Shown here in pieces: positions 26,315-63,741 of a stretch of 64,000 bases of DNA. Source of the stretch: Curtobacterium sp. PhB115 (GTDB lineage: Bacteria; Actinomycetota; Actinomycetes; Actinomycetales; Microbacteriaceae); NCBI RefSeq assembly GCF_003752025.1, contig NZ_RJKR01000009.1, forward strand, positions 186,001-250,000, in the 5' to 3' direction. Position numbers and translations under genes: made by a program. The notes under the pieces were generated by a model. It was not told where the DNA came from, made no database searches, and worked only from the letters and a program-made list of their open reading frames with translations. Within the stretch, counting starts at the first letter, position 1. Each line of letters starts with the position of its first letter.

Positions 26315-26365
26315 GTGAGCAGGAATGGTCGGCTCCGGTGGACGGACCCGACCATTCCTGCTCAC
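26315..26365. repeat. Extragenic inverted repeat, family B
   Basis: GTGAGCAGGAATGGTCGG (26315-26332) and its exact complement (26348-26365) flank a 15-nt spacer. The same arms recur at 31176-31228, 31328-31380 and 63691-63741. The copy lies between converging genes (ends at 26225 and 26399) next to a family A palindrome. Confidence 0.92.
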
Positions 26366-26398
26366 CAAGCGAGCGCGTGAGTGAGCGCGCGCCGTCCG

Positions 26399-27757
26399 TC
26401 AGCGGCGTGCGCGTCGGGCCATCAGACCCACACCGTGCAGCAGCCGGTACTCGGGCGACCGCGTGAGGCCGTCGAACCGCGCCGCGATCTGGTCCCGCTC
26501 GGCCTCGGCCTGCCGCCGTGCGGTGTCGTACGCGCCGACCTTCTGCTCGGAGACGATCAACCGCTGGTTGATGTCCTGCACGCCGGCCAGGTGCACGTCA
26601 CGGTCGTGCTCGGCCTGGCGCAGGACCTCTCGCTGCGCCGTCGCCCAGCGCAGGAACGCGCCGCGCTCACCGGAGCGGCCGGACGCGATGGCCACGGCGG
26701 CGTCGAGCACCGGACCGATCTGCACGGCGCGGGCACGGAACGAGTGCCGCTCGACGACCACGGCACGGAGCCGGGCGACCAGTGCGGTGCGCTCGGCACG
26801 GGGCATCGCGAGGGCACGCTCGAGCGAGGCCGCGTCCTCGAACACCGGCACGTCGGACAAGCCGAGCTCGTCCAGGCCGAGCGCGCAGTCGGTGACGGGC
26901 AGGGCGCCGGAGGCGAGCGACTCGTAGAGACGGGAGTTCAGCGTGCCGAACTCGGCGGCCGGTGCGATGACGTCGTCGACGACGAAGCCGGCGGCGCGGT
27001 AGACCTCCGGGAGGGCGAAGTAGGACACCGCCGGTCGGAGCTCGACGCCGGCGGAGGCCTCGACGTGGTCGACGTTGGCCGCGAACCAGACGATCGGTTC
27101 GGCGGGGGCGACCTCGGCGAGGACGTCCTGCACCCGGCGGCGGACACCCCAGAAGTTGACGGTGGTGACGGCGCGGTCGGTGCGGGCGGGTGCGCCGGTG
27201 GTGGTGGTCGCGGTCCCGGTCCCGGGACCGGTCCCGGTCCCCGTCCCGGTCACGGTCTCGGTCGCTTCCTCGTTGGTGGTGAACAGGTCGGTGTCGACGC
27301 CGATCGGGACGACCTCGACCGGGCCGTCGTAGTTCGCGGCCACCACGTCGCGGGCGATGCCGGACGACGTCCACACCGCGTCGAACTCGTCGAGGTACGG
27401 CAACGCCGCCCACTTGGCCGTCCAGTTCCTGACCCAGGCGACGAGGGCCGTGGACGCCGGCACGTACCCGGGGACGAACGACTCGATCATGCTCACCAGG
27501 ACGGCGGTGTCCTCGGGGACCTGCTCGCCCCAGCGTGCGAGCGGCCACATCGCGACGCCCCAGCCCTCGGCACGGAGCGCCCGCGCGAGCCCGAGCGCCA
27601 CGAACAGGTCGCCCTTGCCCTCGGTCGGGTCGTCGGTCGACACCGCGAACCGGATCGTCCCGCGCGGCCCCTCGGCGTGCTCGCCGGCAGCGAGGGCCGT
27701 GTACTCCTGTCGGAGCGGGGACGACATGGGGGTGTTCGGGATCACGGCGGCAGTCAC
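26399..27757 (-). CDS. Glycosyltransferase (GT-B) with C-terminal coiled-coil-like region
   Basis: About 452 residues. The N-terminal part (IRFAVSTDDPTEGKGDLFVALGLARAL) and middle (AVSYFALPEVYRAAGFVV, GTLNSRLYESLASGALPVTD) resemble GT-B glycosyltransferases with a CgeB/GT1-type donor domain. A Gly-Thr tract (VTGTGTGTGPGTGT) near residue 180 is encoded by a GGTCCC-like repeat (27178-27262). The last ~80 residues are charged and helical (VSEQKVGAYDTARRQAEAERDQIAARFD), probably a coiled coil. I prefer GTG 27757, 7 nt after a -10-like CAGAAT; ATG 27727 is an alternative. Confidence 0.7.
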   Translation of the reverse strand: MTAAVIPNTPMSSPLRQEYTALAAGEHAEGPRGTIRFAVSTDDPTEGKGDLFVALGLARALRAEGWGVAMWPLARWGEQVPEDTAVLVSMIESFVPGYVPASTALVAWVRNWTAKWAALPYLDEFDAVWTSSGIARDVVAANYDGPVEVVPIGVDTDLFTTNEEATETVTGTGTGTGPGTGTATTTTGAPARTDRAVTTVNFWGVRRRVQDVLAEVAPAEPIVWFAANVDHVEASAGVELRPAVSYFALPEVYRAAGFVVDDVIAPAAEFGTLNSRLYESLASGALPVTDCALGLDELGLSDVPVFEDAASLERALAMPRAERTALVARLRAVVVERHSFRARAVQIGPVLDAAVAIASGRSGERGAFLRWATAQREVLRQAEHDRDVHLAGVQDINQRLIVSEQKVGAYDTARRQAEAERDQIAARFDGLTRSPEYRLLHGVGLMARRARR

Positions 27758-27764
27758 GCCCGCC

Positions 27765-27770
27765 ATTCTG
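27765..27770 (-). promoter_or_regulatory. -10-like hexamer CAGAAT 7 nt before the GTG at 27757
   Basis: The spacing to the start codon implies transcription begins at or next to the GTG, i.e. a leaderless mRNA. The same hexamer and spacing precede the RDD gene (48161-48166). Confidence 0.45.
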
Positions 27771-60758: not shown

Positions 60759-60790
60759 GTGTGCGCGGCCCGTTCGCGGGTCGCGCACAC
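60759..60790 (+). terminator. Stable hairpin after hpf
   Basis: Stem GTGTGCGCG (60759-60767) with CGCGCACAC (60782-60790), and an inner CCCG-TTCG-CGGG capped by a UUCG-type loop. Well placed 27 bp past the hpf stop; no T-tract. Confidence 0.6.
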
Positions 60791-60885
60791 CCGCGTCGCT
60801 CACAGCGCAGGGCTGTTGCGGGTTGCTAGCATGACTGGTCGATCGGGCGTGCAGGTCGCGCCCGACGACCTCGTAAGGAGCTCAC

Positions 60886-63669
60886 GTGGCAAACGTGCTG
60901 GAGAAGGTCCTCCGCATCGGCGAAGGACGAACCCTCCGCCGGCTGAAGGCGTACGCCTCGGCGATCAACGACCTCGAGGACGACTTCTCGAGCCTCACCG
61001 ACGAGGAGCTCCAGGACGAGACGAAGGAGCTCCGCGAGCGGTACGCCAACGGCGAGACCCTCGATGACCTCCTGCCCGAGGCGTTCGCAGCGGTCCGCGA
61101 AGCGGCGAAGCGCACCCTCGGCATGCGGCACTTCGACGTGCAGCTCATGGGCGGCGCGGCCCTCCACCTCGGCAACATCGCCGAGATGAAGACCGGTGAG
61201 GGCAAGACCCTCGTCGCCACCACGGCCGCGTACCTCAACGCGATCCCGTCGCGCGGCGTGCACGTCATCACCGTGAACGACTACCTCGCGTCGTACCAGT
61301 CCGAGATCATGGGCCGCGTCTTCCGCGCCCTCGGTATGACGACCGGGTGCATCGTCGCGAACCAGTCCCCGGCCGAGCGCCGTGAGCAGTACGCGGCCGA
61401 CATCACGTACGGCACGAACAACGAGTTCGGCTTCGACTACCTGCGCGACAACATGGCGTGGCAGGCCTCGGACATGGTGCAGCGCGGACACTTCTTCGCC
61501 GTCGTGGACGAGGTCGACTCGATCCTCATCGACGAGGCCCGCACGCCGCTCATCATCTCCGGTCCGTCCTCGGGCGAGGCCAACCGCTGGTTCACCGAGT
61601 TCGCCTCGATCGCCAAGCGCCTCACCCCGGGCGAGGACTACGAGGTCGACGAGAAGAAGCGCACCGTCGGCGTGCTCGAGCCCGGCATCGAGAAGGTCGA
61701 GGACTACCTCGGTATCGACAACCTGTACGAGTCGGCGAACACCCCGCTGATCTCGTTCCTGAACAACTCGATCAAGGCCGTCGCGCTGTTCAAGAAGGAC
61801 AAGGACTACGTCGTGATGAACGGCGAGGTGCTCATCGTCGACGAGCACACCGGCCGCATCCTGATGGGTCGTCGCTACAACGAGGGCATCCACCAGGCGA
61901 TCGAGGCGAAGGAAGCGGTCGAGGTCAAGGCCGAGAACCAGACCCTCGCCACGGTCACGCTCCAGAACTACTTCCGCCTGTACCAGAAGCTCTCGGGCAT
62001 GACGGGTACCGCCGAGACCGAGGCGGCGGAGTTCATGTCGACCTACAAGCTCGGCGTGGTCCCGATCCCGACGAACAAGCCGATGCAGCGCATCGACCAG
62101 ACCGACCTCGTCTACAAGAACGAGAAGGCGAAGTTCGAGCAGGTCGCCGAGGACATCGCCGAGCGCCACGAGAAGGGCCAGCCCGTCCTCGTCGGCACCA
62201 CGAGCGTCGAGAAGTCCGAGTACCTCTCGAAGCTCCTCGCGAAGAAGGGCGTCAAGCACGAGGTCCTCAACGCGAAGAACCACGCGCGCGAAGCAGCGAT
62301 CGTGGCCCAGGCGGGTCGCCTCGGCGCCGTGACGGTCGCGACGAACATGGCCGGTCGTGGTACCGACATCATGCTCGGCGGCAACTCCGAGTTCCTCGCC
62401 GTGCAGGAGATGCACGCCAAGGGGCTCTCGCCGTCGGAGACCCCCGACGAGTACGAGGCCGAGTGGGACGACGTGTTCGCCCGCGTCAAGGCCGAGGTCA
62501 ACGAAGAGGGCGACAAGGTCCGCGAGGCCGGCGGTCTCTACGTCCTCGGCACCGAGCGCCACGAGTCCCGCCGCATCGACAACCAGCTCCGCGGTCGTTC
62601 CGGCCGTCAGGGCGACCCGGGCGAGAGCCGCTTCTACCTGTCGCTCACCGACGACCTGATGCGCCTGTTCAACTCCGGTGCCGCCGAGAGCCTGATGGGC
62701 CGCTCGAACGTGCCGGACGACCTGGCCATCGAGAACAAGCTCGTCGGCCGCGCGATCCGTTCCGCCCAGGCACAGGTCGAGGGCCGGAACGCCGAGATCC
62801 GCAAGAACGTCCTCAAGTACGACGACGTCCTGAACCGCCAGCGCGAAGCGATCTACAGCGACCGCCGGCACATCCTCGAGGGCGACGACCTGCACGAGCG
62901 TGCGCAGTCGTTCCTGAAGAGCGTCGTCGACGACGTCATCGACACCCACACCGGCGAGGGCTCGCCGGACGACTGGGACCTCGACGCCATGTGGACCGAG
63001 CTCGGCACGCTCTACCCGATCTCGATCTCCATCGACGAGGTCATCACCGAGGCCGGCTCGAAGGGCAAGGCGTCCCGCGAGTTCCTCGGTCGCGAGATCC
63101 TCTCCGACGCCAAGCTCGCCTACTCCAAGCGCGAGGAGCTCCTCGGCGACGAGGCGATGCGCGAGCTCGAGCGCCGCGTGGTCCTCTCGGTGATCGACCG
63201 CCGCTGGCGCGACCACCTGTACGAGATGGACTACCTCAAGGACGGCATCGGCCTCCGCGCGATGGCACAGCGTGACCCGCTGGTCGAGTACCAGCGCGAG
63301 GGCTACGCACTGTTCCAGAGCATGATGGGGCAGATCCGCGAAGAGTCGGTCGGCTACCTCTTCAACCTCGAGGTCCAGGTGCAGTCCGACGGTGAGAACG
63401 CCGTGATCGAGGCCAAGGGCCTCGGCGAGGACGAGGTCTCCGGTCTCGAGTACTCGGCTCCGTCGATCGACGGCGAGGTCGAGGTGCGCGACGAGCGCGG
63501 GCGCCTCGAGCAGGCCGCCACGGCGCGTGCACAGCGTGCCCAGGCCGAGGCCGAAGCGGCTGCCGAGCCGGAGCAGGGTTCCGCCTTCGGCAACGCGGCG
63601 ACCGCCTCCGGCCAGGCTGCCGCGGCCGGCAACCGTGCCGAGCGTCGACAGGCCGCGAAGAAGAACTAG
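60886..63669 (+). CDS. secA: Preprotein translocase ATPase SecA
   Basis: 927 residues. DEAD-motor parts are clear: TGEGK107T in [14 protein letters not shown], the [14 protein letters not shown] box, [20 protein letters not shown] and [20 protein letters not shown] in shorter pieces such as [11 protein letters not shown]. The scaffold and wing domains follow. The C-terminus is Ala/Glu-rich and ends [10 protein letters not shown] without the Cys zinc finger of E. coli SecA, which is usual for actinobacterial SecA1. GTG 60886 has AAGGAG at 60875-60880; TAGCAT (60827-60832) is a possible -10. Drives export of the secreted proteins seen earlier. Confidence 0.97.
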
Positions 63670-63690
63670 CGCCCTGCGCGCGAGCGCATC

Positions 63691-63741
63691 GTGAGCAGAA
63701 ATGGTCGGGTCCCACGTCGGGACCCGACCATTTCTGCTCAC
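63691..63741. repeat. Extragenic inverted repeat, family B (perfect 21-bp arms)
   Basis: Arms beginning GTGAGCAGAAATGGTCGGGT (63691-63711, 21 nt) and their exact complement (63721-63741) flank a 9-nt loop. It is the most symmetrical B copy, 21 bp past the secA stop, in the gap to a converging gene. Confidence 0.95.

Follow-up and report, generated by a model that had tools for sequence, protein, structure and literature searches.

A dispersed 63-bp inverted repeat at gene 3′ ends keeps many of its sites across Curtobacterium species while its arms change by lineage

Introduction

Repetitive extragenic palindromes (REPs) and the GTAG- and CGTC-tagged palindromes are described, in parts of PMC3733652 and PMC2817692, as short, dispersed and extragenic, conserved beyond pairing, and located mostly in convergent or unidirectional gaps. 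Here we analyse a family of short dispersed extragenic palindromes with many copies, mostly in such gaps and likewise conserved beyond pairing, first seen in a 64-kb stretch of Curtobacterium sp. PhB115 (the window; the genome is a 3.97-Mb draft of 13 contigs). This element differs from REPs in carrying no tag, in that no RAYT was found in 60 genomes, and in its form, a nearly fixed 63-bp inverted pair whose spacers are unlike between copies and whose sites are kept across arm dialects. DNA uptake sequences (DUS) also have lineage dialects, and occur at gene ends in inverted pairs that can fold into stem-loops, as set out in part of PMC3630211. The element has dialects and inverted pairs at gene ends in common with them, but it is present in dozens of copies rather than hundreds to thousands, has a half-site of about 24 bp, and showed no unpaired exact arm. 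Many DUS motifs are single. Bidirectional intrinsic terminators are palindromic, lie in convergent gaps and form a strong hairpin, as does the element, which is distinguished from them by lacking a U-tract and by sequence-specific arms that differ by lineage; a second palindrome of the window, family A, may be a local example of such terminators. Finally, chromosomal binding-site sets such as matS or Noc sites consist of dispersed palindromes, tens in number, that a single protein reads. They are not known to be tied to gene 3′ ends, whereas the element, similar in being tens of dispersed palindromes, sits at gene 3′ ends and has a reader that is putative.

We found no description of the element in the literature, in a search that left subscription journals mostly outside its coverage and included no full-sequence search. 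The new finding is that the element occupies the same gaps in related species although its arm dialect differs between them.

An inverted repeat at gene 3′ ends

The conserved unit, drawn from the 69 PhB115 copies with a 51-nt core, is about 63 bp long and reads CRCWTS-GTGAGCAGRAATGGTCGRGT-about 11 nt-mirror image, with conservation reaching about 6 bp outside each arm. Each half-site of about 24 bp consists in Curtobacterium of an outer box GAGCAG, 5 bp and an inner box GTCGRGT, together with the 6 bp outside. The arms are conserved more than hairpin formation demands, in agreement with the preliminary description of four window copies, and the core length is nearly fixed: 51 nt in 69 of 72 PhB115 copies, 52 in two and 50 in one (scan range 50-52 only), and 51 nt in 87 of 88 and 67 of 67 copies in wider scans allowing 49-53 and 49-55 nt, respectively. 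A polarity of the element, with two unlike ends, was rejected, the likelihood being no higher than with shuffled flanks. Outward flank positions 3 and 5 show an excess of unlike ends, and pairing at outer flank positions -4 and -2 is rarer than after shuffling (156 copies).

When an 18-nt arm was sought in the window with at most 3 mismatches, all 8 matches fell inside the four copies, compared with a mean of 0.11 and a maximum of 2 in 100 shuffles. This arm scan and our gene calls, made with a home-made codon model without comparison to an annotation, bear out that the four copies exist and all lie in convergent gaps. Each has a core of 51 nt; the ends first given for copies 1 and 4 were exact, while those of copies 2 and 3 had taken in a few matched flanking bases.

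Across the 4-Mb genome, the arm GTGAGCAGRAATGGTCG with at most 2 mismatches had 76 forward and 77 reverse matches, against 0 for the reversed-pattern control. Surroundings were examined for the listed exact arms and some one-mismatch arms, every one of which was part of a paired copy. The 72 distinct copies of this arm-based set comprised 46 in convergent, 24 in tandem and 2 in divergent gaps, with 0 in called genes. A general pattern, in which GAGCAG-N5-GTCG is paired with its mirror image at a spacing of 16-18 nt, had 75 exact PhB115 copies, and among its listed matches were five additional copies, four tandem and one convergent. The total is at least 77 copies (47 convergent, 28 tandem, 2 divergent and 0 in called genes), so that a dispersed family enriched in convergent gaps, as supposed from the first four copies, is indeed present. 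The accompanying statement that the element occurs in convergent gaps only is true for the window and does not hold genome-wide; as copies also lie in tandem and divergent gaps, it is too strong, and the location is better given as gene 3′ ends. Among gaps of at least 60 nt in the examined PhB115 regions, a copy was present in 43 of 74 convergent gaps, 24 of 126 tandem gaps and 2 of 85 divergent ones. The choice of regions around copies inflates these rates but does not account for the contrast between gap types. In 9 of the 77 copies (8 of the arm-based 72 and one of the five additional ones) a gene stop lies at offset -4, using the TGA of GTGAGC or its mirror image.

The same placement is seen beyond PhB115. 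In a scan of named genomes, the matches listed (80 of 85 stretches) were in Curtobacterium only, and their loci held 38 convergent, 19 tandem, 7 divergent and 0 genic copies after 24 copies near an edge and 1 duplicate were set aside. With all species pooled, PhB115 included, 211 of 222 distinct copies were classifiable, as 118 convergent, 78 tandem, 15 divergent and 0 in genes.

Arm dialects at shared sites

Other Curtobacterium species keep the geometry but carry different arms, such as GGGAGCAG-GAATC-GTCG in G052 and TGGAGCAG-AAGAC-GTCG in G015, and those of G025 are mixed, including CTGAGCAG-AACTG-GTCG. We compared other-dialect regions (20 from G052, 9 from G025, 8 from G015 and 3 from G017) and same-dialect regions (14 from G004 and 6 from G028) with PhB115 by mapping flanking gene ends to its DNA, which for this comparison means the regions around its own copies only. 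A box scan of the 60 regions found 67 elements, and none in three regions (L289, L291 and L305). Counting only convergent and tandem gaps of at least 60 nt, PhB115 had its own element at 16 of the 19 mapped gaps that hold one in other-dialect genomes versus 3 of the 40 that do not; for same-dialect genomes these figures were 17 of 17 versus 1 of 20. The outer box at sites common to two genomes is that of the genome in which it lies, namely GGGAGCAG in 9 of 9 G052 pairs and TGGAGCAG in 4 of 4 G015 pairs, where PhB115 has GTGAGCAG.

Spacers at shared sites keep a trace of descent, since their identity exceeds that of shuffled pairs: 70% vs 41% in 18 same-dialect pairs (reached by 0 of 5000 shuffles), 47% vs 39% in 15 other-dialect pairs (p=0.012), and 49% vs 38% in the 8 pairs of G052 alone (p=0.016), in a comparison that omits three pairs of unequal length and has some PhB115 copies in more than one pair. 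Within the PhB115 genome most copies have spacers unlike those of other copies, and a few pairs, L154:4001/L155:4001 among them, are nearly identical. The view that spacers are unrelated does not hold for copies 2 and 3, whose spacers are similar and both start GTCGCGTCCGC; their likeness makes these two copies probably a duplication. In one shared pair, L169 of PhB115 and L286 of G025, both members have the unusual inner stem CCTCCC and agree at 10 of 11 spacer bases, while both arms differ at the same two places. At PhB115 L165 the gene stop lies inside the element and in the G052 counterpart directly before it. Other intergenic sequence in the compared gaps is mostly not recognisably alike, judged by eye.

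Orthologous sites without the element exist among relatives at copies 1 and 4, as had been anticipated. The copy 1 gap could be located by both its flanks in 12 relatives, and by eye the element is present in 1 of them (G007) and absent in 11. The copy 4 site has both element and family A in PhB115 and G001, the element alone in G005, and family A alone in G011, G032 and G030, and because of these latter four genomes the two palindromes appear as if mutually replaceable. Copy 4 is also found in G004 with an identical spacer. The pair at position 9 of this site is A-T in PhB115, G-C in G001 and C-G in G005. A MITE or IS derivative would be expected to show a target-site duplication and recent, nearly identical copies; comparison by eye of copies 1 and 4 with relatives gave no clean junction, the flanks being too diverged. 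The arrangement of copy 2, family A and copy 3 also occurs in G004 and G011.

DNA signal, RNA helix and termination features

Conservation of the arms for an RNA helix should leave, in tandem-gap copies, more G·U than A·C mismatches when the transcript is read. The 78 tandem-gap copies of all species have G·U 57 times and A·C 48 times (p=0.44), and the per-position sums for positions 1-20 were 32 and 38. As G·U and A·C are about equal, selection for an RNA helix is not apparent in the core arms.

The hairpin is nevertheless very stable, with a median minimum free energy (MFE) of -47 kcal/mol and a range of -57 to -30.7, and a stable GC-rich hairpin is thus found at the gene end. A U-tract was not found within 10 nt outside the core ends, where T numbers 0.89 and 1.03 against a background of 1.45. 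Among convergent gaps of 60-700 nt in the examined regions, another strong hairpin is present in 22 of 42 with the element and 24 of 31 without it (p=0.049), which fits partial substitution, not clean replacement, since such hairpins are commoner where the element is absent, yet occur in 22 of 42 gaps where it is present.

Distribution of the element

The exact palindrome occurs in 16 of 99 genomes, PhB115 included, all within the genus. The covariance model R1, built on the PhB115 family, had matches, with saturating counts, in 40 of 60 Curtobacterium genomes; the general pattern occurs in 34 of the 60, with most copies in PhB115. A search of related Microbacteriaceae, proposed at the outset, found copies mostly in Curtobacterium: the general pattern was present in 7 of 398 family genomes, six of them Curtobacterium (of 10) and the other G307 (1 of 388 others), the only case in another genus. 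G307 has 4 copies, with arms CATCGAAGGAGCAGAGATGGTCG in small variations, and a gene model trained on 56 kb of this genome places all four in convergent gaps. Every one of the 4 retains the 17-nt spacing while lacking the inner GGGT/ACCC. In the 80-kb region orthologous to the window a looser scan found 2 copies each in G005, G011 and G032, 1 in G001 and 0 in G030. Over 198 genomes of the order, with 27 candidates scored per genome, R1 gave weak matches in 6 besides PhB115; by eye these are mostly other hairpins, L237 with its T-run resembling an ordinary terminator. One weak R1 match lies in another family of the order (G173, L242:1500-1563), with arms AAATGGTCG/CGACCATTT. Viral contigs yielded 4 exact single-arm matches that we judged chance, the partner arm being absent from 45 nt either side.

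A putative reader protein and its alternatives

From sequence comparison, we see about an even chance that the element is the binding site of a putative sequence-specific DNA-binding protein and likely a two-way transcription barrier. The putative protein would recognise, in double-stranded DNA, two inverted half-sites whose spacing hardly varies, spanning 63 bp in all, and once bound at gene 3′ ends would act as a two-way barrier to transcription entering the facing or next gene. The hairpin formed by the palindrome may help this barrier, and the protein would co-evolve with its sites, which would follow as the recognition sequence shifts. A reader protein is the most likely explanation because sites remain in their gaps as their sequence changes from lineage to lineage, which is the trace expected of such a reader. 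The placement at gene ends, the near-constant geometry (retained in G307), the descent seen in spacers, the unlikeness of most intergenic sequence around the element and the apparent interchange with family A at the copy 4 site also speak for it. The sequence-specific role suspected in the preliminary description is the claim most strengthened by our data, through the shared sites across dialects and the near equality of G·U and A·C, with the protein itself still putative. More tentatively, one such protein and about 70-80 fixed-geometry 3′-end palindromes could form an insulator system that blocks transcription from both sides and whose recognition sequence has changed repeatedly, a wider claim that we regard as possible rather than probable. 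The dialects would make the putative reader findable by pull-down or by co-variation with dialect, and should it stop RNA polymerase where genes converge, bacteria would have in it a counterpart of protein-roadblock termination.

Several observations weigh against a reader protein. The G052, G025, G015 and G017 sites were the best-scoring listed matches of R1, a choice that favours well-paired copies, and 18 of 37 element gaps in other-dialect genomes were unmapped, compared with 4 of 21 in same-dialect genomes. The dialects are impure, in that G025 is mixed at its 4 shared pairs and PhB115 has a minor AAGAY-type subfamily (L333, L335-L337, L154:2962), in which the flanks of L335 and L336 are nearer the G052 dialect. 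The two arms are unlike in the middle 5-mer in 16 of 33 G004 and 21 of 32 G015 copies; agreement there is still above random pairing (17 vs 3.7 in G004 and 11 vs 6.1 in G015), but because middle 5-mers often differ, the statement that both arms change together fits the boxes better than the middle. Fixed length alone is no proof of a protein, as the family A core is also nearly fixed, at 32 nt in 33 of 39 distinct PhB115 examples. A barrier would often be redundant, since 22 of 42 element-bearing convergent gaps hold another strong hairpin. Core positions 9 and 11-13, inner positions 22-23 and outer positions -3 and -1 covary (156 copies), inner positions 21-24 have G·U 25 times vs A·C 10, and the RNA fold of one G307 copy still gains four inner pairs. 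Pairing in RNA therefore seems to matter in the inner stem, where G·U exceeds A·C and positions 22-23 covary; the core resembles a signal read in DNA, and the inner stem resembles a structural element.

A further account, which we find rather doubtful but worth serious weight, is that of a REP-like mobile palindrome, spread by a non-RAYT or since-lost transposase, tolerated 3′ of genes and diverged into subfamilies by lineage. Dispersed copies and their presence or absence at orthologous sites would fit, as would the coexistence of subfamilies and a three-copy array at L103 with one hybrid, and the distribution over 3′ gaps resembles that of REPs as given in part of PMC3733652. However, the Y1_Tnp/RAYT family (PF01797) was found in 0 of 60 genus genomes, PhB115 included, while 5 of 14 control genomes were positive, and the consensus CRCWTSGTGAGCAG...CTGCTCACSAWGYG, read by eye, has no GTAG or CGTC tag at an end; membership in the REP class in the strict, RAYT-driven sense, one of the early suggestions, fails on both grounds. 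The spacers, which differ within the genome yet tend to be common to orthologues, are the reverse of what recent copying would leave, the same gaps are occupied across dialects, and plasmid and phage collections gave zero matches to copy 4 (one 65-nt query). As copy presence differs between species, a REP-like mobile origin is possible for how the copies first arose.

We think it unlikely that the element is a family of bidirectional intrinsic terminators, hairpins lacking a U-tract in which structure and template-switch correction, with no dedicated protein, would keep the arms alike, though bidirectional termination by the element is in itself plausible. The stability of the hairpin, the G·U bias of the inner stem, and two-sided changes in 16 of 30 pairs vs 12.4 shuffled (alignment A1), together with the position 9 series at the copy 4 site, would be expected of such a family, as would the excess of other hairpins in gaps without the element and the case of G005, which has the element alone. 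Yet it leaves the lineage-wide sequence dialects unexplained, T is not enriched within 10 nt of either end, the core arms have no G·U bias, and in G004 and G015 the middle 5-mer is often unlike between arms. A DNA-uptake-type signal, kept at gene ends through biased transformation, is very improbable: the dialects and inverted pairs at terminators of Neisseriaceae DUS (part of PMC3630211) are similar, but there are only about 77 copies, the half-sites are far longer, and every listed exact arm examined lay in a paired copy. The reading as a protein-binding site is the one that we prefer.

Window copies, neighbouring genes and other palindromes

The features of the window are collected in Table 1. 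A search for known RNA families in the window gave zero matches at gathering scores.

Table 1. Coordinates of the element, its converging genes and family A palindromes in the window
Feature	Position	Strand	Remarks
Copy 1, 63-bp form	26309..26371	no strand	core 26315-26365; + / - convergent gap 26226-26398
Copy 2, 63-bp form	31171..31233	no strand	core 31177-31227; convergent gap 31129-31424; right arm with 2 mismatches
Copy 3, 63-bp form	31323..31385	no strand	core 31329-31379; convergent gap 31129-31424, shared with copy 2
Copy 4, 63-bp form	63685..63747	no strand	core 63691-63741; convergent gap 63670-63866, 3′ of secA
Gene left of copy 1, converging	23673..26225	+	without Pfam family at E<=1e-5
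Glycosyltransferase-like gene right of copy 1, converging	26399..27766	-	Pfam family search
Glycosyltransferase family 2 gene left of copies 2 and 3, converging	30382..31128	+	Pfam family search
Gene right of copies 2 and 3, converging	31425..32702	-	without Pfam family at E<=1e-5
secA, converging gene left of copy 4	60886..63669	+	SecA domains
Family A palindrome GGACGGGAGGC...GCCTCCCGTCC	26232..26293	no strand	same gap as copy 1
Family A palindrome, degenerate	31254..31303	no strand	between copies 2 and 3
Family A palindrome	63812..63855	no strand	same gap as copy 4

The family A palindrome near copy 1 is perhaps an ordinary terminator. Palindromes of this family (GGAGGC...GCCTCC) lie at 1463-1506 and in the gaps of copies 1 and 4, and their inner stem varies between species with both sides changed. 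In the gap orthologous to that of copies 2 and 3 (L188, L189, L194), some relatives have a different palindrome, GGTTCCGAGATCTYGGAACC.

Flanking genes were considered as a pointer to a reader protein at the site of PhB115 L133, which is common to G052, G025 and G017, and gave no lead. One gene near this site, by eye and without a family search, resembles what we take to be valS, and the other appears alpha/beta hydrolase-like, also by eye.

At L103:6449-6726, one divergent gap holds three copies of the element, and in the middle copy the two arms belong to different subfamilies, as though recombination had produced it. Two further kinds of palindrome were seen. A nested palindrome, GCGCCCCGG...CCGGGGCGC, at window positions 17207-17268, occurs twice in a 403-nt convergent gap, with similar ones in L155 and L172, and another family in convergent gaps (L129, L132 and L134) has arms like CGCACAACCGAAGTC and a covarying interior.

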